Source of the DNA: Candidatus Rokuibacteriota bacterium
Lineage (GTDB): Bacteria > Methylomirabilota > Methylomirabilia > Rokubacteriales > CSP1-6
Length of the DNA: 64,000 bases
Direction of reading: 5' to 3'
Assembly (NCBI GenBank): GCA_016188005.1
Contig: JACPIQ010000075.1
Coordinates: 1 to 64,000, forward strand
The notes beneath the pieces are model-generated. The model ran no database searches. It was not told the DNA's origin and was given only the letters and a program-made list of their open reading frames with translations. Positions 2,674 through 13,047 of this stretch are shown here, piece by piece. The first letter of the stretch is position 1, and the number at the start of each line of letters is the position of its first letter. The position numbers were made by a program, and so were the translations under genes.

Positions 2674-3601
2674 GGCCATCGCCGCGCCGGCGCGGGCGCT
2701 CCCGTCGGCGGGGGTGCGGGACCGCGTCGGCGCCTACGCGGAGCTCTCCAAGCTCGGCATCGTGCTGCTCGTCCTCGTCTCGGCCTGCGCCGGCTTCATG
2801 CTGGCGGCTCCCCTCGGCGCGGAGTTCCCGTGGCGGCAGGGCGTCCTGGTCCTCCTGGGGGTGCTGCTCCTGTCCTGCGGCGCCTCCGCGCTCAATCAGG
2901 TGCAGGAACGCGGGCGCGACGCCCTCATGCGACGGACCGTGAACCGGCCGCTCCCCTCGGGCCGCCTCTCGCTGACCCAGGGAACCTTGTTCGCCGCCCT
3001 GGCGCTCGTCACCGGGGCGGTGGTCCTGTGGCTCGGTGTGGGTGGGACGGCCGGCGCCCTGGGGCTCGTCGCGGCCTCGTTCTACAACGGCCTCTACACC
3101 CCGTGGCTCAAGCCGACCTCCCCCTTCGCGGCCGTGCCGGGGGCCGTGCCGGGATCGCTCCCGCCCGTGATCGGCTGGGTGGCCGGCGGCGGATCCCTCA
3201 CCGACGCCGGCGCGCTCATCCTCTTCGGCGTCCTGTTCCTCTGGCAGATGCCCCATTTCTGGGCGCTGGCCCTGCGCTACCGCGCCGACTACGCCGCAGG
3301 GGGCTTCCCCATGGTGTCCGAGGCCGTCGGCGTCGAGGGCACGGCCCGGCTCATCCTCCTCTATGCGCTGGGGCTCACGGCGCTGGCGCTTGCCGCGCCG
3401 AGCTTCGGGCTGGGCGGATGGGCCTCGCTGGCGGCCGCGGCGCTGCTGGGCTGGCGGCTCATCTGGCTGGCGAGCAAGTTCGCGCAGCGGCCCGAGGAGC
3501 AGCGTGGGTGGCTCTCGCTCTTCCTCTTCTCCAACGTCTACCTCCTCCTGTTCTTCGCCGTCCTGGTGGGAGAGCGCCTCGTCCGCCACGCTCTCTCCTG
3601 A
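2663..3601 (+). CDS. ctaB: Protoheme IX farnesyltransferase (heme O synthase)
   Basis: 312 residues from GTG 2663, chosen because the conserved protein starts shortly after it and the codon overlaps the ctaA stop. It is a UbiA-type membrane prenyltransferase. The first substrate motif is N78QVQERGRDALMRRT followed by NRPLPSG; the second conserved segment is YRADYAAGGFPMV. It adds the farnesyl chain to protoheme to form heme O, the substrate of the CtaA encoded before it. It is the last gene of the oxidase cluster; about 200 bp follow before an unrelated low-GC gene. Confidence 0.93.
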   Translation: MSPRAIAAPARALPSAGVRDRVGAYAELSKLGIVLLVLVSACAGFMLAAPLGAEFPWRQGVLVLLGVLLLSCGASALNQVQERGRDALMRRTVNRPLPSGRLSLTQGTLFAALALVTGAVVLWLGVGGTAGALGLVAASFYNGLYTPWLKPTSPFAAVPGAVPGSLPPVIGWVAGGGSLTDAGALILFGVLFLWQMPHFWALALRYRADYAAGGFPMVSEAVGVEGTARLILLYALGLTALALAAPSFGLGGWASLAAAALLGWRLIWLASKFAQRPEEQRGWLSLFLFSNVYLLLFFAVLVGERLVRHALS

Positions 3602-3749
3602 GCCCGCCGCGGGGGCCGGACGACATCGCCAGGCTAGCCGCCTAACGACTGTCGACTCCCGTGGACCGATATGGGCAGCGCCGGCCGTCTTGTCCGACAC
3701 CCGCCGTTCTAGGCGACTATATATACCTTATTATCTAGCTATTTGTCGC

Positions 3750-3804
3750 ATTGTAAACATTGTCACCAACTATGTTTACAATAGCCTTCCGATGCGTTTA
3801 CAAT
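3750..3804 (+). promoter_or_regulatory. GTTTACAAT operator triplet overlapping a promoter
   Basis: ATTGTAAAC at 3750-3758 and GTTTACAAT at 3774-3782 form an inverted repeat. A second GTTTACAAT at 3796-3804 repeats the right arm 22 bp further on, about two helical turns. TTTACA at 3775-3780 and TACAAT at 3799-3804 make a sigma-70-like pair with an 18-bp spacer, so the two direct repeats cover the -35 and -10 boxes. Transcription would begin near 3811, at the ATG itself. The HTH domain of the following protein is the obvious candidate ligand (autoregulation); this is an inference. Confidence 0.6.
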
Positions 3805-3810
3805 ATCGTC

Positions 3811-4869
3811 ATGGCGACTGCGATCAGCGAACTATCCGAAGTACAACGTTTTATCCTAGCGGAGTTACCCAACCACCCACAGGACATCGCAAAGGTGGTT
3901 GGGGAGAAGTTCGGCATCACGCGTCAGGCCGTCGGCCGACATCTCCGCCGCCTCGTTGCACTTGGTCTTCTGACCGCAAAGGGGGAGACAAGAAGCCGAG
4001 AATACACGTTCGCGCTTCTCGGCAAGAGGTCAGCCTGGCTACCAATCACCGAGCAGTTGGAAGAGGACGCCGTCTGGCGAGAGGAAGTTGCGCCGGTCTT
4101 GGCTGGAGTGCCGGGCAACGTGATGGACATCTGTCGATATGGTGTGACGGAGATCGTGAACAACGCGATGGATCATTCCGGCTCGCCAAACGTCAGAGTC
4201 AATGTTGAATACACAGCATCAGAGATCAAGATCATGATCCTCGACGAGGGCATAGGGATCTTCCGAAAGATTAAGGAATACTGTGGCCTGGAGGATGAGC
4301 GACATGCCATCCTTGAGCTATCGAAAGGCAAATTGACTACTGACCCCAATCGGCACACGGGAGAGGGCATCTTCTTCACGTCGAGGATGTTTGACAGCTT
4401 CGGGATTCTCTCCGGCTATCTCTATGTCGGCTGCAGCCGTGGCGGCGGCGACTGGCTACTAGAAGATAGAGAGCACCCGTTCAAAGGGACGTCAGTTCAT
4501 ATGAATATCAGCCCCCTGTCTAATCACACGAATACGGAAGTCTTCGACAAATATGCTACCGATCAGGACGACTACGCTTTCAGTCGCACTCATGTCGTAG
4601 TCGCGTTGGCCCAGCAGTTCCACGGGGAGAAGCTGGTTTCTCGTTCACAGGCCAAGCGCGTCATGGCACGGCTTGAGCGGTTCCGCGAGGTCCTACTGGA
4701 TTTTGCCGGTATGGAAGACGTGGGGCCCGCTTTCGCCGACGAAATCTTCAGAGTCTTTCGGAATGAGCATCCCGAAACCCACATTACCGCGATCAACAGC
4801 AATGATGCCGTCGGAAGGATGATTCGGCGCGCTGAGGCGGGGGCGCGGTCGGAAGAATCAACGAGTTAG
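3811..4869 (+). CDS. HTH / GHKL ATPase / STAS-like (DUF4325) fusion protein
   Basis: 352 residues from ATG 3811, preferred over an upstream in-frame ATG at 3760 that lies inside the operator repeats. Residues about 8-65 form a winged helix (GITRQAVGRHLRRLVALGLL). Residues about 100-235 form a histidine-kinase-like ATPase with N box E114IVNNAMDH, G1 box D145EGIGIF and G2 box H182TGEGIFF. There is no phospho-acceptor histidine domain. Residues about 255-345 match the STAS-like DUF4325 pattern (LVSRSQAKR, LLDFAGMEDVGPAFADEIFR). This gathers, in one chain, parts that resemble an anti-sigma kinase and its antagonist plus a DNA reader. Base composition is about 53% GC in sampled lines, far below its neighbours, with codons such as cta and ata that are rare elsewhere, so it was probably acquired by transfer. 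The true target is unknown. Confidence 0.85.
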   Translation: MATAISELSEVQRFILAELPNHPQDIAKVVGEKFGITRQAVGRHLRRLVALGLLTAKGETRSREYTFALLGKRSAWLPITEQLEEDAVWREEVAPVLAGVPGNVMDICRYGVTEIVNNAMDHSGSPNVRVNVEYTASEIKIMILDEGIGIFRKIKEYCGLEDERHAILELSKGKLTTDPNRHTGEGIFFTSRMFDSFGILSGYLYVGCSRGGGDWLLEDREHPFKGTSVHMNISPLSNHTNTEVFDKYATDQDDYAFSRTHVVVALAQQFHGEKLVSRSQAKRVMARLERFREVLLDFAGMEDVGPAFADEIFRVFRNEHPETHITAINSNDAVGRMIRRAEAGARSEESTS

Positions 4870-5156
4870 GTGTTGCCCCCCCGACACCGTGGACCCGCGT
4901 GGGCCGCAGGGGAAGTACCAGTTAGGCTAGCGCATAGAAGGAGTGACAAGCGCTGCTCCCTCGGCTCCCACGAATCAAACTGAGACACCACCCGCCGCGG
5001 CGGGCTGTTGACAACGACAATTCGCTGCTGCTACGCTCCGCCGCGCGCGAGATCGTACGGTGTCGTGGTCCGCTGTCCTCATCCGCTGCCCCGCCCATCG
5101 GCTCCGTCGCCCGCGACGAGTGCCCGCGTTCGAAGCTGTCCGGGAGGAGAGAGGCC
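4870..5156. other. Intergenic spacer after the low-GC gene
   Basis: About 290 bp of mixed composition. The first half is still relatively AT-rich and shows no gene; the second half carries the promoter at 5008-5037 and the GGGAGGAGA ribosome binding site (5141-5149) of the next operon. No tRNA, integrase or transposase remnant could be recognised here. Confidence 0.5.
5008..5037 (+). promoter_or_regulatory. Sigma-70-like promoter for the catabolic operon
   Basis: A perfect -35 box TTGACA lies at 5008-5013, with TACGCT at 5032-5037 after an 18-bp spacer. It is about 120 bp upstream of the amidohydrolase start and is the only good match in the spacer. The assignment is by sequence pattern only. 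Confidence 0.45.
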
Positions 5157-6026
5157 GTGAGGATCGAGGAGATCGGCGCGATCGACACAGTCGTGAACAT
5201 CTGGACGGAGGAGTCCCTGACGTACCGGCCCAGCTGGCGGCATGCGTTCTTTCTCGACAAGATGAAGTCGAACGCGCAGAACGTCGCCGGCGTCTCGCTG
5301 GAACGCACGATCGAGCTGATGGACGAGGCCGGGATCCGGCGCGGCTTCCTCGTGTCGACCAAGGCGGGCCGGCGTGGCCACCCCTCGACATACCATCTGC
5401 CGTACCGGCTGGTGGCCGACGCCATCCAGAAGTACCCGGAGCGCTTCTCCGGGCTCGCCGGGATCGATCCGTTCGAGGGCATGCAGGGCGTCCGGGAGTT
5501 CGCCCGGGCGGTGACCGAATACGGCTTCATCGGCGCGCACCTCTATCCGCAGTGGTTCGAGCTCGCGCCCGATCACGCCAAGTACTATCCCTTCTACGCG
5601 AAATGTTGCGAGCTCGACGTGCCGGTGCTGATGCACATCGGTCAGTCGATGGTGTACGCGCCGGACTACCCGTGCCGCAGCGTGGGCCGCCCGATCACGC
5701 TGGACTCGGTCGCCTGCGACCTCCCGGAGCTCCGAGTGGTGGCGAGCCACATCGGCATTCCCTGGATCGACGAGATGATCGCGATGGCGTGGAAGCACGC
5801 GAACATCTACATCGCCTCGGACGCGCACAGCCCGAAGTACTGGCCGCCAGCCTTCGTGCACTACCTCAACACCTACGGCTCGGACAAGGTGATGTTCGGC
5901 ACCGACTTCCCGTTGCTGGACTTCAGTCGGACGATGCAGGAGATCAAGGCGCTCGATCTGAGGCCGGAGGTGCTGCCGAAGTTCCTGCGCGACAACGCCG
6001 CGCGGGCGTTCAAGCTGGCGATCTGA
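5157..6026 (+). CDS. Amidohydrolase-2 (ACMSD-like) family protein lacking the N-terminal HxH
   Basis: 289 residues from GTG 5157 behind a good ribosome binding site. The fold is the metal-dependent TIM barrel of the amidohydrolase-2 family: GIDPFEG, GAHLYPQ, LMH160IG, ASH198IG and GTD250FP are in the usual order and spacing. The family normally begins with D-x-H-x-H, which supplies two metal ligands; here the same place reads AIDTVVNIW, with no histidine. The metal site is therefore changed or reduced. Members act as hydrolases, decarboxylases or hydratases on carboxylic acids; the substrate cannot be told. It is the first gene of an operon with a CoA ligase and an acyl-CoA dehydrogenase. Confidence 0.8.
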   Translation: MRIEEIGAIDTVVNIWTEESLTYRPSWRHAFFLDKMKSNAQNVAGVSLERTIELMDEAGIRRGFLVSTKAGRRGHPSTYHLPYRLVADAIQKYPERFSGLAGIDPFEGMQGVREFARAVTEYGFIGAHLYPQWFELAPDHAKYYPFYAKCCELDVPVLMHIGQSMVYAPDYPCRSVGRPITLDSVACDLPELRVVASHIGIPWIDEMIAMAWKHANIYIASDAHSPKYWPPAFVHYLNTYGSDKVMFGTDFPLLDFSRTMQEIKALDLRPEVLPKFLRDNAARAFKLAI

Positions 6027-6034
6027 GGAGCCCG

Positions 6035-7477
6035 ATGCCCCTGTCCGAGGTCTTCCGGCTCCACGCCCGCCTGAGGGGCAGCAAGGTGGCCATCCGGCAG
6101 GGGCCCCGCCGCATCAGCTACCGCTCGCTCGACCGGCTCATCAACGGGGTCTGCTTCGTGCTCGAGGGGCTCGGCGTCCGACGCGGCGACCTGGTCGGGG
6201 TGGCCCTCCGCGACAGCGCGGAGCATCTCATCGTGCTGCTGGCACTGTCGCGGTACGGCGCCGTCATCGTCCCGATCGACTGGCGGTGGAGCGAGAGCGA
6301 GCAGCAGGCCGTCGCGGCCCGTTTCGGCGCCCGGATGGTGCTGATCGACGGCGCGCCTGCAGGCCGGCCCGAGACCTGGCCCGTCATCTCCGCTGCCTGG
6401 TTTTCGGAGACCGATCGGGAGTACCTCGACGACCAGCTCGGCGACGACAGCCCGCTGCTCCTGTCGCTGTCGGCAGGAACCACCGGCCACCCCAAGGGGC
6501 CGTGCGCGACGCACCGCCAGTTCGAGAACCGGTTCATGGCCTACTGGATCGACCTGACGCTGAATGCGCACGACCGGTTCGTCCTCGCCACCCCCCTCTA
6601 TCACGGCGGTGGCCGCGGGTTCGCCCTGGCGATGCTGTTCGCCGGGGCGACCGTGTGCGTCTTTCCGGCGCCGTACAGGCCCCACGAGCTGATCCCGCAC
6701 GTGGCCGAGGTGGACGGCACCGCCACCTTCCTGGTGCCGACGATCCTGCGCCGGCTGCTCGAGAACCGCTTCGACGGCCTCGCCTTCCCCGGCCTCAGGA
6801 AGCTGATCTCGAGCGGCTCGGCCCTCTATCAGGAGGAGCGTGTCGCCGTCAGGCAGCGGCTGACGCCGCACCTCTACGAGATCTACTCGTCGACGGAGGG
6901 CGGGGCGGCGACGGTCACGGGCCCGGAGGAGATGGACCGCTACCCCGACTCCGTGGGGCGCCCGGCCTTCCGGGTGCAGCTCGAGATCGTGGACGACAGC
7001 CACCGTCCCGTCCGGCCCGGCGAAGTCGGCCGGCTGCGATACCGCAGTCCGGCCTCTCCGCAGGGCTACTTCGTGGGCGATTCGTCGGAGGCGTTCAGGG
7101 ACGGTTGGTTCTATCCCGGCGATCTGGCCGCGATGAATGCGGACGGCTTCGTGTTCCTGAAGGGGCGGGCCAAGGACATGATCATCCGCGGTGGCGTCAA
7201 CATCTATCCCGCGGACATCGAGCAGGTGCTGCTCGAGGCCGAGGAGGTGACCGATGCCGCCGTGCTCGGCGTGCCGTCGCGCGAGCTGGGCGAGGAGGTC
7301 GCAGCGTTCGTCGTCGCCTCCTCACCCGTCGAGGCGGCGCAGCTCGTCTCGCTGTGCCGCGCCCGGCTCGCCGCCTACAAGGTGCCGTCAAGGATCTTCT
7401 TCGTGGACAGCCTGCCGAGGAACTCGGCGGGGAAGGTCCTCAAGGCGGAGCTGACACGCCTGGCCGGCGCCGGCTGA
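6035..7477 (+). CDS. Acyl-CoA synthetase (AMP-forming, class I adenylating enzyme)
   Basis: 480 residues from ATG 6035, 8 nt after the amidohydrolase stop. It shows the ATP-binding loop SAGTTGHPKG (about 146-155), the YSSTEGG adenine-binding segment (about 284-290), and the hinge and A8 motif GRAKDMIIRGGVNIYP. The catalytic lysine sits in LPRNSAGK near the C-terminus. The protein is somewhat shorter than typical 500-550-residue acyl-CoA ligases but has all core motifs. It would activate an acid taken up or produced by this island to its CoA thioester, feeding the dehydrogenase encoded next. The acid specificity cannot be read from the sequence. Confidence 0.9.
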   Translation: MPLSEVFRLHARLRGSKVAIRQGPRRISYRSLDRLINGVCFVLEGLGVRRGDLVGVALRDSAEHLIVLLALSRYGAVIVPIDWRWSESEQQAVAARFGARMVLIDGAPAGRPETWPVISAAWFSETDREYLDDQLGDDSPLLLSLSAGTTGHPKGPCATHRQFENRFMAYWIDLTLNAHDRFVLATPLYHGGGRGFALAMLFAGATVCVFPAPYRPHELIPHVAEVDGTATFLVPTILRRLLENRFDGLAFPGLRKLISSGSALYQEERVAVRQRLTPHLYEIYSSTEGGAATVTGPEEMDRYPDSVGRPAFRVQLEIVDDSHRPVRPGEVGRLRYRSPASPQGYFVGDSSEAFRDGWFYPGDLAAMNADGFVFLKGRAKDMIIRGGVNIYPADIEQVLLEAEEVTDAAVLGVPSRELGEEVAAFVVASSPVEAAQLVSLCRARLAAYKVPSRIFFVDSLPRNSAGKVLKAELTRLAGAG

Positions 7478-7508
7478 TCGCCCGAGGCGCCGCCGAGGTC
7501 GACCACGG

Positions 7509-8642
7509 ATGCGGGAAGCGGAGTCCCTGATCATGAACTCCGTCGAGCAGTTCTGTCGCCAGAGGCTCGGGGGAGACGAGGTGCGGCGCCGCGACGAGGC
7601 GCATCAGCCCCCCTACGACCTCGTCCCCGCCATGGCCGAGCTGGGCCTGATCCGGGCCCCCTTCCCCGAGAGCCAGGGCGGTCTCGGCGTGAGCTGGTCC
7701 TTGTTCTGCCGCATCCAGGAGCGGCTCGGCTACCACGCGTACTTCGCCGGATCGATCCTCAATCGCTTCGTCAGCTTCGGAGGCATGCCCATCGCCCTGT
7801 TCGGAAGCGAGGCGCAACGGGCCGCCCTCCTGCCCGAGATCCTGGCGGGGAGGGCGCTGATCGCGCTGGCCCTCAGCGAGCCCGAGGCGGGGTCCGACGC
7901 GCGGGCCGTGCGGACGCGCGCCCGCCGGGACGGAGCCCGGTGGCGGCTCGCGGGGCGGAAGACCTGGATCAGCGACGCCGGCGGCGCCGCCTACCTGCTC
8001 ACCCTCTCCCGCACAGCCGAGGGGCCCGGCCGGGACCACGCGCTGACGGCGTTCCTGGTGCCGGCCCGCGCCAGCGGGATCTCGATGACCGAGCTCCCGA
8101 AGGTCGGCAACAACTGCATGCCGAGCTGGGACATCGGCCTGGACGACGTGCTCGTCGACGATGCCGCCCGGCTCGGGCCGGTCGGCCAGGGATTCGAGGT
8201 GGTGACCGGAACCCTCGGTTTCTCGCGGGCGAGCATGGCAGCCACCGTCACGGGCTGCGCGCAGGCGGCCCTCGACCTGGCGATCGCGCATGCGCAGGAG
8301 CGCCGGCAGTTCGGCCGGCCGATCGTGCAATTCCAGGTGCTGCGGCACCGGCTCGTCGACATGCGGATCGAGGTCGAGAAAGCGCGCGTGCTCGTCTACG
8401 AGCTGGCGCGGCGGATCGATGCCGCCGAGCAGACCGGCGAGCTCTCCGCGATCGCGAAGATCGTCGCGACCGAGGCCCTGCAGTTCGTCACCGAGCACGG
8501 CATGCAGATCCTGGCCAGCGCTGGCTATGCGCGCGAGAGCGCCATGCAGCGGTACTGGCGCGATGCGCGGCTCTACACCTTCGGGGAGGGGACGAATGAG
8601 ATCCAGCGCGAGATCATCGCCGGCCACATGGGCCTGCGCTGA
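7509..8642 (+). CDS. Acyl-CoA dehydrogenase
   Basis: 377 residues, ATG 7509. It has the standard three-part acyl-CoA dehydrogenase layout: N-terminal helices, a beta domain with the FAD/substrate pattern LALSEPEAGSDARAV, and a C-terminal helical domain with RRQFGRPIVQFQ. The conserved end FGEGTNEIQR contains the glutamate that occupies the catalytic-base region in many members. It would oxidise an acyl-CoA to the 2,3-enoyl-CoA, passing electrons to ETF. The place between a CoA ligase and a TAXI binding protein suggests the substrate is an imported acid. Confidence 0.92.
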   Translation: MREAESLIMNSVEQFCRQRLGGDEVRRRDEAHQPPYDLVPAMAELGLIRAPFPESQGGLGVSWSLFCRIQERLGYHAYFAGSILNRFVSFGGMPIALFGSEAQRAALLPEILAGRALIALALSEPEAGSDARAVRTRARRDGARWRLAGRKTWISDAGGAAYLLTLSRTAEGPGRDHALTAFLVPARASGISMTELPKVGNNCMPSWDIGLDDVLVDDAARLGPVGQGFEVVTGTLGFSRASMAATVTGCAQAALDLAIAHAQERRQFGRPIVQFQVLRHRLVDMRIEVEKARVLVYELARRIDAAEQTGELSAIAKIVATEALQFVTEHGMQILASAGYARESAMQRYWRDARLYTFGEGTNEIQREIIAGHMGLR

Positions 8643-8700
8643 TCGCTGTCCGCACCGTCACGAGCATCCAACGTCATCCGTCACACGTCCGGAGGGACTC

Positions 8701-9897
8701 ATGAAGACGAGAGGCTGGGTTGTCGTCGCCGTCTCGGTGACCCTGGTCCTGCTGGCTCTCGCGGCACCTGACTCCGGCGCGCAGCCGAGACCGCCGGGGT
8801 CGATCGTCTTCTCAGGCTACGAGGTCGGCACCAGCACGTACTCGCAGGTCCAGGCGGTGGGCAACGCCATCAACGCCCAGTACGGCACCGCCGTCCGGAC
8901 GCTGCCCTTCGGGGATGCGGTGGGCCGGCTCCTGGCGACCAAGCTCGGCAAGGCCCAGTTCGCGGTCTCCGCCGTGGACTGGCACCTGGCCTTCGAGGGC
9001 TTGTACGATTTCTCGGCGCTCTCGTGGGGACCGCAGGGGCTCGACCTCGTCTGGCAGACGCAGCCCACGGCCCTGGTCACCATGGCGGCCACGAAGAAAT
9101 CTGGGATCAAGACGCCGTACGACGCCAAGGGCAAGCGGGTCGCGCAGATCGCCGGCTCGCCGGCGCTGAACCTCGCCATCCAGGGGTGGCTGGCCTTCGG
9201 CAACCTCACGTTGAACGACGTGAAGGTCGTGACCTTCTCCGGCTATACCCAGAGCATCACCGGTCTCATCAACGGGACCTGCGATGTCGGCTTCGGGTTC
9301 GGCACCACCCCTCAGTACAATGACCTCGACGCCTCCCCGCAGGGACTGGTCTGGGTGCAGCTTCCGTTCTCCGACACCGGTGGATGGGAGCGCATGTTGA
9401 AGGTCGCTCCTCACCTGCAGAAGTTCACCGCCACCAGCGCGGAGTCGGCAGTCGGCGTGACCGCCGCCAACCCCGTGCAGGGCTCGACGTTCGTCAGCCC
9501 GGTCATCGTCGGCTACTCGGGCGCGGTCCCGGACGAGCTGGCCTACTTCTACGTCAAGGCGATCGACGAGCTGTATTCCAGGTACAAGGATTCCTTCCAC
9601 GTCCTGAAGTACTGGACCCTGAAGGAGTCTCTCGTGCCCCAGGGCTTTGCGCCGTATCACCCCGGCGTCGTCAGGTACCTCAAGGAGAAGGGCATCTGGA
9701 ATGCCAGCTTCCAGAAATTCCAGGACGGCATGCTGAAGAGGCGCCAGATCCTCCAGGAAGCCTGGGACAGGACCGTCGCCGAAGGAACCCAGAAGGGCCT
9801 GCCCAGCGGGCAGATCAAGGAGAGCTGGCTGAAGACCCGCCAGGCCGCGCTGGCGGCGCAGCAGCCGACGCATCCGTCGATGTGGTGGCAGCCCTAG
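8701..9897 (+). CDS. TAXI-family TRAP transporter substrate-binding protein
   Basis: 398 residues from ATG 8701, with GGAGGG just upstream. A Sec signal peptide spans about residues 1-27, ending in a small-residue region before QPRPPG. The mature part shows the TAXI pattern: an early GTSTYSQVQAVGNAI, central GKRVAQIAGSPA and INGTCDVGFGFG, and a C-terminal helix-rich region. The periplasmic protein would capture an organic acid and deliver it to the permease, whose gene lies tail-to-tail on the other strand. The last 83 bp overlap the 3' end of that permease gene. Confidence 0.88.
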   Translation: MKTRGWVVVAVSVTLVLLALAAPDSGAQPRPPGSIVFSGYEVGTSTYSQVQAVGNAINAQYGTAVRTLPFGDAVGRLLATKLGKAQFAVSAVDWHLAFEGLYDFSALSWGPQGLDLVWQTQPTALVTMAATKKSGIKTPYDAKGKRVAQIAGSPALNLAIQGWLAFGNLTLNDVKVVTFSGYTQSITGLINGTCDVGFGFGTTPQYNDLDASPQGLVWVQLPFSDTGGWERMLKVAPHLQKFTATSAESAVGVTAANPVQGSTFVSPVIVGYSGAVPDELAYFYVKAIDELYSRYKDSFHVLKYWTLKESLVPQGFAPYHPGVVRYLKEKGIWNASFQKFQDGMLKRRQILQEAWDRTVAEGTQKGLPSGQIKESWLKTRQAALAAQQPTHPSMWWQP

Positions 9898-11839
9898 CGC
9901 GGGCTCGTGCCCGGGCGAGCTTGACTCCGGCAAAGGTGAGCACCGCGATTCCGAGACCGATGAGATCGAGGTACCACAGGGGATAGAAGAACATCAGCCC
10001 TGCGACGAGAAACGCCGTTGCCACGGGCCGGCTCACCGTCCCCACCCCGAGGATATATCGCTCCAGGCTTCCACCGATGAGCGCCACCCCCAGCATGGCC
10101 GTGAGGGAGCTCACGAGGATCTTCCACACCGGCCCCTGCATCACGAGGGATGGATCGATCACGAAGAAGAACGGGATGATGTAGAGGATCAGGCCCAGGC
10201 GCGTGGCCTTCAGCGCGATCTTCATGGGCGGCGCCTCGGCGATCGGAGCGGCCACGAAGCAGCCGACGGCGGTCGGCGGAGTCAGATCGGACAGGAGCCC
10301 CCAGTACAGGATGAACATGTGGGCGGCGATCGGCTCGATGCCGACCCTGACCATGGCGGGCGCGATCGTGATCGCCAGGAAGATGTAGCACGCGGAGGCG
10401 GTCAGGCCGGTGCCCAGGATGAAGCTGGTGACGGCGCAGAACACGAGGAGCAACCACATGTTTCCACCCGCCAGTCTGGTCAGCTCGTAGCTCATCGTGC
10501 CGCCCAGTCCGGTCACGTAGAACGAGCCGATGATGAACCCGACGACACCGAGGATCAGGGTCAGCTCCGCGAGGTACTTCCCCGTGGAGACGATGAACTG
10601 CCCGAGGGTCTTCACGGAGAAGCGGCCGTCGCGCCTGAAGATTCCGTACCCGATCAGGAAGGCGGATGCGTAGAACGGCGCCTCGGCTTGCTGCCGGAAG
10701 TTGAAGAGAGCCACCATCAGGACCGCGAGCGACACGAGATACGGCCAGCCGGTCTTGAGCGTCTTCCCCAGCAGGGTCAGTTGACTGCGGTCGAGGCCTC
10801 TCAGGCCATGCCGAGCCGCAAAGGCATCGGCTTGAACGAACAGACCCCAGTAGTAGAGAACGGTGGGAATCGTCGCCGCCGCGCAGACCGCGGAATACGG
10901 GATCCCGAGCACCATGGCCATGAGGAAGGCCGCAGCCCCCATGATCGGGGGCGACAGCGCCCCTCCGAGCGCTCCGCAGGCCACGAGCGCCCCCGCATAG
11001 TCGCCGGGGTATCCGGTCTTCTTCATGGCCGGGATGATCGTCGTGCCGGTGACGATCACGTTCGACGCTGTGCTCCCGGTGAAGATCCCGAAGAGTCCGG
11101 TCGCGACGATCGAGACCTTGGCCACTCCTCCTCTCACCGTCCCCATGAGGGCGAGTGCGAACTCGAGGAAGAACTTGCCGGCCCCCGTGTACTCGAGCGC
11201 GGCCCCGAACACGATGTAGCCGAAGACCAGCTGACCGATCACCTGCATGGGCACGCCCATGACACTGGCGTTGCTGATGAAGTGATAGGCGGCCAGTCCA
11301 CCGAAGGAGAATGCCGGCGGGCCCCAGAGCATTCCAGGAAGGAAAGGGGCCAGCAGGGGATACACGGAGAAGAACGCCGCCAGCAGGACCAGCCACGATC
11401 CGCCGGCCCGCCTCCCGCCTTCCATCAGGATGATCCACAGGAGGATGGACATGACCACCGCCTGTGGAGGCGGAGCCATGCTCCAGCCCTGAGTGACGAC
11501 GTCGTAACCGTGCCACGAGAGGTACAGGCCGCATCCGAAGACGGCAAGAAACATCAGCCAGTCGTACCAGGGAACCCTTCGTCTCTCCGCGCCTTCCCTG
11601 GCCCGGTAGAAGAGGAACCCGAGCGAGCCATAGATCGCCAGGATGCTGTACAGGTAGGAGGTGTCGATCGGCACGGGCACCAGATTCAGGCGGAAGGTGT
11701 AGCTCACGCCAACGAGCAGCCCGGCGGCGCTGAGAACCAGGGCCACGACCTGGAACACCCGCTCGCCGGTCCCGCCGGGCTCCGCGGTCACTGCGCGTCC
11801 CGCTGGCTGGCGGAGGACCAAGGGGCTGTCACCGGTCAC
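9815..11839 (-). CDS. TRAP transporter permease, fused small and large subunits (TAXI type)
   Basis: About 674 residues from GTG 11839; GTG 11791 is an equally possible start, since neither has a strong ribosome binding site. It has many hydrophobic helices: a DctQ-like N-terminal set, then the DctM-like large domain with FGIFTGSTASNVIVTGT, CGALGGALSPPIMGAAAF and SDLTPPTAVGCFVAAPIAEA. It uses an ion gradient to drive uptake of the acid bound by the TAXI protein. The C-terminal tail after GVKLARARAR is low-complexity and is simply the antisense of the binding-protein gene, as if the original stop codon had been lost. Translation may be coupled to the preceding TPP-enzyme remnant, which it overlaps by 11 nt. 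Confidence 0.88.
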   Translation of the reverse strand: MTGDSPLVLRQPAGRAVTAEPGGTGERVFQVVALVLSAAGLLVGVSYTFRLNLVPVPIDTSYLYSILAIYGSLGFLFYRAREGAERRRVPWYDWLMFLAVFGCGLYLSWHGYDVVTQGWSMAPPPQAVVMSILLWIILMEGGRRAGGSWLVLLAAFFSVYPLLAPFLPGMLWGPPAFSFGGLAAYHFISNASVMGVPMQVIGQLVFGYIVFGAALEYTGAGKFFLEFALALMGTVRGGVAKVSIVATGLFGIFTGSTASNVIVTGTTIIPAMKKTGYPGDYAGALVACGALGGALSPPIMGAAAFLMAMVLGIPYSAVCAAATIPTVLYYWGLFVQADAFAARHGLRGLDRSQLTLLGKTLKTGWPYLVSLAVLMVALFNFRQQAEAPFYASAFLIGYGIFRRDGRFSVKTLGQFIVSTGKYLAELTLILGVVGFIIGSFYVTGLGGTMSYELTRLAGGNMWLLLVFCAVTSFILGTGLTASACYIFLAITIAPAMVRVGIEPIAAHMFILYWGLLSDLTPPTAVGCFVAAPIAEAPPMKIALKATRLGLILYIIPFFFVIDPSLVMQGPVWKILVSSLTAMLGVALIGGSLERYILGVGTVSRPVATAFLVAGLMFFYPLWYLDLIGLGIAVLTFAGVKLARARARARAATTSTDASAAAPPARPGGSSASSP

Positions 11840-12140
11840 CCGGCGCGCCCGCGCCCGGCCGTTGGTACCTGGGCAGACGCCGCAGCGGCATGAAGTACCG
11901 TGGTCGTGACATCCGGCCCACCGGCACCTCGACCAGGACGGGGCGGTCCATCTCGATCGCCTGGTCGACAAGGTCGCCGGCCTCGAGCGGCTCCCGGGCG
12001 CGGAGCCCCACCACGCCGAAGGCATCGGCGAGCTTCATGAAGTCCGGGTTGCGAACGCCGCCACCGGCGCAGCACACGACGCGCACGCCCTCGCGGAGCA
12101 GCGACGTCACCAGCGCCTCACCGCCGATCATCCTGGCCAT
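11829..12140 (-). pseudogene. Remnant of a thiamine-diphosphate enzyme (acetolactate-synthase-like), internally deleted
   Basis: This 103-codon frame joins two ends of a large enzyme. The first 25 or so residues (MIGGEALVTSLLREGVRVV) match the normal N-terminus of acetolactate-synthase-like TPP enzymes. From NPDFMKLADAFGV through RPVLVEVPVG it matches their C-terminal TPP-binding end. Some 450 residues between them are missing, including the ThDP glycine motif. The junction is in frame, so a short protein could be made, but it cannot be an active enzyme. It lies between the racemase-like gene and the TRAP permease on the same strand. Confidence 0.7.
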
Positions 12141-12195
12141 CGGCCCCTCCCTCGGACGCCCCCCGTGCCTCGCGCGGCCGGCGGTCGGTGCCGGA

Positions 12196-12993
12196 CTAGT
12201 GCTCGATCCTGAATACGGGCCGGTAGGCCGCGAAGGTCTCCTCGAGAAGCTCGCGTCCCGGGTGGCCGTAGACCCCCAGCTTCCTCGACACCTCGACGCC
12301 GATCTTCTTCAGGTCGGCGAGCATCTCGGCGGCCTTCACCAGCACGCTGATCGTATCCAGCACCAGGACATCGTCGAGCGTGGTCAGCCCCGTCCTGTAG
12401 GCCGCGGTGGCGAGGAAGGCCGGATTCGGCACGATGACCGAGGCCCCGTCGGCGATGGCCTTCCGCGCGGCCACCGCGAACCGCCCTGTGATCTGCGCGG
12501 GGTTCGTGAGAGCCAGCGCCACCTCCTCCTCGGTGGCGGGGAAGAAGTAGTTGCCACGGAGATGCTTGCTCTCCAGCCCGTACCGCACCACCTGCTGCCT
12601 GTACTTCTCGCAGAAGTGGGCCGAGATCGAGACGATGGCGAACAGCTCGCCCAGCATCGCAGCGAGGTGATAGCTGGTCTGGCTGATGCCGACCACCGGG
12701 ATGCCGAGCATCTCCCGTCCTTCCTCCAGCCCCGTATCCGAGGTGCAGCCGATGGCGAAGACGTCGTAGCCTTCCTTCTCGGCCCGGAGCATGTTGTTCA
12801 GTACCTGGATCTTGTGGTAGTAGGTGACCGACTTGAAGCGATCGATCTCCCGCATCATCACCGGCAGCCCGGTCACGTAGATCTCAGTGTCCGGTCGCGC
12901 TGCCCTCCGGCACTGCTCCTCGAGCGTCTTGCCATATGCCTCGAAGGTCTCCTCGTACCGATACGAGCTTGCACTCTGGTACCAGATCCTCAT
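12196..12993 (-). CDS. Asp/Glu/hydantoin racemase superfamily protein with one catalytic cysteine
   Basis: 265 residues, ATG 12993. The first active-site cysteine is present (IGC83TSDTGLEEG) and the fold pattern fits: GIPVVGISQTSYHL, and FAIVSISAHF as the second lobe. The second conserved cysteine of racemases (usually in GCG or GCT) is replaced by N-P-A in VIVPN190PAFLA. A one-cysteine protein should not racemise by the two-base mechanism; isomerase, decarboxylase or hydrolase activity is possible. It shares the strand with the permease and the second CoA ligase. Confidence 0.78.
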   Translation of the reverse strand: MRIWYQSASSYRYEETFEAYGKTLEEQCRRAARPDTEIYVTGLPVMMREIDRFKSVTYYHKIQVLNNMLRAEKEGYDVFAIGCTSDTGLEEGREMLGIPVVGISQTSYHLAAMLGELFAIVSISAHFCEKYRQQVVRYGLESKHLRGNYFFPATEEEVALALTNPAQITGRFAVAARKAIADGASVIVPNPAFLATAAYRTGLTTLDDVLVLDTISVLVKAAEMLADLKKIGVEVSRKLGVYGHPGRELLEETFAAYRPVFRIEH

Positions 12994-13047
12994 GTGCGCT
13001 CCTTATGGCCGTGGCCGGTTCCCGCGCCGCTCCGTCGCGGAGCCCCC

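Follow-up and report, generated by a model that had tools for sequence, protein, structure and literature searches.

Can a whole regulatory switch be carried by one gene together with its own operator? This question is raised by a gene in the window, the whole stretch of 64,000 nucleotides analysed here, which encodes a DNA-binding domain, an ATPase and a STAS-like domain in a single chain. The initial annotation described a 352-residue protein with a winged helix, a GHKL ATPase without a phospho-acceptor domain and a DUF4325 domain, which is borne out by Pfam and by the ORF at 3811-4869. The features considered are as follows:

3609..13038, no strand assigned: 9.4-kb segment missing from the corresponding position in G002, a genome of the same genus (genome comparison)
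3750..3758, minus strand: operator repeat 1, GTTTACAAT, inverted (exact-copy search)
3774..3782, plus strand: operator repeat 2, GTTTACAAT, containing a -35-like TTTACA (3775-3780)
3796..3804, plus strand: operator repeat 3, GTTTACAAT, containing a -10-like TACAAT (3799-3804)
3811..4869, plus strand: gene for the wHTH–GHKL ATPase–DUF4325 (STAS-like) protein, 352 aa (ORF list, Pfam)
3832..4017, plus strand: winged-helix DNA-binding domain, residues ~8-69 (MarR/ArsR matches), with the recognition helix at residues ~38-50
4015..4521, plus strand: GHKL (Bergerat) ATPase domain, residues ~69-237 (SpoIIAB structural match, conservation)
4573..4845, plus strand: DUF4325 STAS-like domain, residues ~255-345 (Pfam, conservation, predicted structure)

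The gene, its promoter and its setting

In the Pfam scan, DUF4325 (PF14213) matched residues 280-334 with an E value of 4e-15 and 55.6 bits, above the Pfam cut-off of 23, and HATPase_c_2 matched residues 88-197 (E 7e-7). The MarR-type winged helix at residues 14-56 (E 6e-6) fell narrowly below its curated cut-off; the winged-helix matches are consistent with the earlier suggestion that the first domain can bind DNA. No HisKA-type dimerisation or phospho-acceptor His domain was found in the protein by the Pfam and NCBIfam scans, which speaks against a two-component histidine kinase. The PADLOC and NCBIfam matches of the protein itself were also discarded, as they are wHTH or HATPase cross-matches lying far under the cut-offs where these are given. 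The domain set is common to most or all of 79 aligned homologues, and the order HTH–GHKL–STAS-like is kept in them (Pfam, alignment).

The sequence GTTTACAAT occurs exactly three times in the 64 kb, always upstream of this gene, while 0.01 copies are expected and none of 100 shuffles reached three. TTTACA and TACAAT form a -35/-10 pair with an 18-bp spacer; the latter ends 6 nt ahead of the ATG, which makes it likely that the transcript is leaderless. It had been noted that three half-sites lie on the -35 and -10: the three exact copies are there, and just two of them overlie these elements. The inverted orientation of the first copy is unusual among homologues and breaks a pure direct-repeat picture.

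The gene has 55.4% GC (GC3 65%) and its operator region about 40% GC, while the next gene, which we read from its translation as an amidohydrolase, has a GC3 of 93%. Positions 4001-5000 make up the lowest-GC 1-kb bin of the window (56%), all other bins being at 64% or more; this agrees with the initial annotation, which had singled out the gene as the only one of about 53% GC, except that the true value is 55.4%. In G002, the end of ctaB (window 3608) runs straight on into window 13039, which places the gene at the left edge of a variable 9.4-kb segment. The other ORFs of 3609-13038 read as amidohydrolase, AMP-dependent ligase, acyl-CoA dehydrogenase and TAXI/TRAP transporter genes, and no integrase was noticed among them. 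No sigma factor gene was seen adjoining the gene within the window.

Operator conservation, spread and mobility of the family

A scan of one genome per species found at least 567 loci encoding the protein, distributed in Chloroflexota, Planctomycetota, Nitrospirota, Cyanobacteriota, Pseudomonadota and other phyla; the best 80 of these at least 567 loci share 46-52% identity. Among 60 relatives, its own genome included, five carry a homologue, and a quick tree, on which the phylogeny rests, mixes the phyla, with 24 label changes where 14 would be the minimum. The foreign origin suggested from composition is thus joined by support for horizontal transfer.

With a weight matrix, the motif (consensus AAnGTTKACAAW) was detected in 91 of 106 upstream regions, and 79 of the 106 have two or more sites. 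In total, 241 sites were counted in these regions against 6-15 in shuffled sets, counts that lean upward because the matrix was trained on the same upstream regions. The untrained pattern TKACAAT is present in 74 regions, with 0.05 expected per 260 bp. Site pairs are spaced by 22 bp (75 pairs) or 21 bp (46 pairs) and almost always share the same orientation; triads are asymmetric, with 21 and then 22 bp in 32 of 53, and the last repeat begins a median of 23 bp ahead of the start codon. The homologue check proposed in the initial annotation therefore returned the same domain order with the operator motif kept, and the autoregulation proposed there is favoured by the conservation of an operator at the gene's own promoter.

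Among the 23 homologues in which the motif is weak or missing, nine carry direct repeats at about 21-22 bp (p <= 0.01 against simple base shuffles), some of which differ greatly in sequence from the main motif. Alternative repeats with this 21-22 bp spacing are AAGTTGTAAAT in L057 (upstream of 6001), TGTTTACAT in L097, ATGCGTTCGC in L109 and TATAGTTAA in L102-L104; the alternative repeats belong to relatives with an altered HTH or a lost motif. All 74 proteins with at least two sites keep R38 of the recognition helix, a residue that six of the 16 without sites have lost. At repeat position 3, residue 42 explains roughly half of the G-versus-T variance, and outside a large Pseudomonadota-rich clade the mean T fraction is 0.22 with Asn42 and 0.63 otherwise; this covariation is partly a clade effect, relatedness being not fully removed. 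Taken together, recognition-helix residues appear to track the operator motif.

The self-contained character claimed for the gene held up, as no conserved partner was found at about 80 loci: no neighbour recurs among the roughly 1,080 flanking ORFs predicted with a simple ORF caller, neighbour orientation is random, and the 150 nearest neighbours of 80 loci fall into 218 Pfam families, none of them in more than three of the 150 proteins. The neighbours had also been proposed as a place to look for defence or prophage genes; no defence family recurs among those of the 80 loci, so that a defence-island partner was rejected, and the PADLOC neighbour matches (DRT, GajB, Cas1, Mads), counted without a background control, are scattered. 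Collections of 50,697 phage records and 72,556 plasmid records gave no match, and the gene was rejected as a phage or plasmid gene. Relatives occur on 25 IMG/VR contigs, some of which carry a more distant subfamily (L089/L090, L097/L098, L101-L107).

Close pairs of homologues in different places share the operator and the gene alone (about 1.1 kb) with unrelated flanks, such as L027/L070, L046/L067, L049/L019 and L049/L047, and L087/L091 share the operator, the gene and one distant stretch. These pairs point to single-gene mobility with sharp edges. In a Woeseiaceae MAG (L064:5832-7102), the homologue is an integron gene cassette between near-identical attC sites, whose ends lie at 4803, 5872 and 7090 (three copies in 13 kb); L070 has core-site-like ends, but its contig breaks off. 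The integrase search in four cassette-candidate genomes covered integron integrases and other tyrosine recombinases without telling them apart. For the window copy, a simple core-site test found no attC downstream within 3501-5400, and an integron origin was rejected for want of an attC pair. The link to mobile elements or phages that had been suggested thus comes down to the integron cassette in L064, the sole vehicle identified. Judging from these comparisons, the gene seems to travel as a one-gene unit with its own operator.

A candidate one-chain switch and its alternatives

The predicted ATPase domain superimposes on SpoIIAB with a Z of 13.1 and an rmsd of 2.7 over 131 residues. E114 (the equivalent of SpoIIAB E46), N118, H122, D145, G147, G149, G184 and G186 are invariant in 106 sequences, so that both the SpoIIAB-type GHKL fold and the intact N, G1 and G2 boxes of the anti-sigma kinases SpoIIAB and RsbW are present. 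The full-length model (pTM 0.72) was built from just five sequences; the structure search with it covered the ATPase and HTH parts, and the C-terminal domain was modelled alone (pLDDT 84). The leading matches of this domain are the STAS proteins RsbS (Z 7.2), RsfB (6.9) and SpoIIAA (6.9), and VIA-align ranks STAS proteins or the STAS portions of SLC26-type transporters highest, at a Z of up to 7.2 (rmsd 2.9 over 82). A STAS-like C-terminal part, as proposed earlier, is therefore what the model predicts, although a Z of about 7 is of modest strength. Profile comparison with true STAS antagonists gave no significant match, and the domain aligns in register with DSSG proteins, where the profile match is likewise not significant alone.

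The place of the SpoIIAA phospho-serine (Ser58) is occupied by A307. Across 106 sequences this position is Ala in 87, Gly in 12, Ser in four and Pro in three; phosphorylation at the canonical serine, and with it the phosphorylated STAS residue envisaged in the initial annotation, is rejected because 99 of the 106 have Ala or Gly. The motif SRSxAxR (residues 277-283, window 4639-4659) and F308 are invariant in the domain. SRSxAxR forms the start of the helix preceding the A307 place; in STAS folds, the start of that helix and the phospho-serine face one end of the domain. Speculatively, the motif might serve for docking or as a relocated or unusual phospho-acceptor.

We consider it an evenly balanced proposition that the gene is an autoregulated one-gene switch, a one-chain relative of the anti-sigma-kinase/STAS switches. 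The winged helix would bind GTTKACAAT repeats that lie over its own promoter in one orientation, at a spacing of about two helical turns, and the bound protein would repress its own transcription, as the conservation of the operator suggests. The GHKL domain, with a full ATP site and SpoIIAB fold, would have the in-chain STAS-like domain as its partner, and the two parts, both on one chain, may bind each other by analogy with SpoIIAB–SpoIIAA and CapK–CapS. The SpoIIAB–SpoIIAA contact joins unlike surfaces; since, in addition, the direct repeats of the operator follow one another at about two turns, the likeliest arrangement would be head-to-tail, with the STAS part of each protomer docked on the ATPase of its neighbour along the DNA. 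Whether such an array holds may be set by ATP or by a stress ligand that is sensed between these domains. Because the canonical STAS residue is non-phosphorylatable, the switch would work by nucleotide-dependent docking, not by the classical phospho-serine. The one-component partner switch proposed earlier is accordingly kept in its single chain, own operator and solitary gene, and given up in its phospho-STAS version. Comparison of homologues speaks for the operator architecture, the intact ATP site, the STAS-like fold, the solitary status and the mobility; that all of this amounts to a phylum-crossing single-gene switch, assembled head-to-tail on a 21/22-bp operator, working without a phospho-serine and mobile with its operator, is a more tentative proposal.

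A somewhat unlikely alternative is an autorepressed kinase or effector, in which the HTH sets dosage only and the GHKL domain has a host protein as its target in trans, for instance a STAS antagonist that it phosphorylates; the protein would then resemble a CapK or VapK minus its own partner gene. CapK is such a kinase (PMC13373217), all ATP-site residues, E114 included, are invariant here, the genomes of relatives hold STAS proteins with a DSSG serine, and the own genome yields no second operator. However, no partner gene lies nearby at about 80 loci, whereas capS directly follows capK in all 443 reported capK genes (PMC13373217); moreover, an invariant H182 replaces SpoIIAB R105 (alignment by eye), and the in-chain STAS-like domain is left unexplained.

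The regulon was addressed by pattern searches, which degenerate sites escape. A near-exact search of the own genome places the tandem pattern solely at the promoter of the window gene, and allowing up to three mismatches adds two further places against two control hits. In G055, G008 and G016 it is confined to the contig of the homologue. Across 30 genomes reached via homologues, tandem sites cluster at the homologue's promoter, the remaining hits resemble the reversed-pattern control (14 hits), and no second site stands clearly above it; overall, tandem sites elsewhere in the own genome and 34 others are near background. A conventional transcription factor that controls a small regulon through degenerate or single sites, its ATPase–STAS part being a ligand or energy sensor, could draw on the 21 single TTKACAAT sites of the own genome, but is distinctly unlikely given these tandem results. 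Returning to the one-chain switch, since no second operator was found, its output beyond its own level would probably be protein-borne, e.g., docking on or phosphorylating a host STAS-type protein, and not a regulon. This is the weakest step of the model, and as a self-only transcription factor is unusual, an output may have been missed.

A selfish or protective cassette (addiction or anti-mobile-element) silenced by autorepression is very improbable: the operator-plus-gene pairs in unrelated places, the L064 cassette and the patchy presence among relatives would suit it, but the protein has no toxin-like or antitoxin-like part, no defence neighbour recurs, and plasmid and phage collections hold none.

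Comparison with known systems

One chain of this protein appears to hold a complete regulatory switch, and the HTH–GHKL–STAS-like architecture appeared in no paper found in a literature search outside preprints. As far as checked, neither of the two papers found to name DUF4325, a STAS-like domain of unknown function significantly matched in 79 of 79 homologues, characterises it. Because this widespread family of uncharacterised regulators comes with an operator at hand, one gene and 60 bp of promoter would suffice for direct tests of the domain's function and of one-chain partner switching. If true, head-to-tail STAS–ATPase docking on DNA would be a new way to build a cooperative operator complex. 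Single-gene mobility with an own operator further prompts one to ask what benefit under selection a self-regulator brings without an evident target. Self-promoting integron cassettes offer a parallel, as the L064 copy lies between attC sites and the operator-plus-gene unit of about 1.1 kb is alike, but most copies, including that of the window, show no attC.

SpoIIAB–SpoIIAA and RsbW–RsbV share with the window protein the GHKL fold with its ATP site and the STAS-like fold. Unlike it, they are separate proteins with a sigma factor output and no DNA-binding domain, and they possess the canonical STAS serine that is missing here.

The nearest known system, and the nearest working model, is CapK and CapS, in which CapK (HTH–STAS–GHKL) phosphorylates CapS (STAS–wHTH), an immune-operon repressor, upon ssDNA (PMC13373217, EMBO J 2026); DUF4325 is not mentioned in that paper. 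The likeness covers the same three domain types with a SpoIIAB-type GHKL, repressor sites over promoters including the own one, oligomeric binding and the logic of a stress switch, binding being presumed for the window protein. The differences are that CapK and CapS are two proteins and the window system is one; that the order is HTH–STAS–GHKL in CapK and HTH–GHKL–STAS here; that capS lies immediately 3' of capK, whereas an amidohydrolase follows here and no neighbour recurs in homologues; and that CapS has a conserved phospho-serine in contrast to A307. In addition, CapS sites are TTAA palindromes and those here are direct GTTKACAAT repeats, and CapKS heads immune operons, whereas the window gene is solitary.
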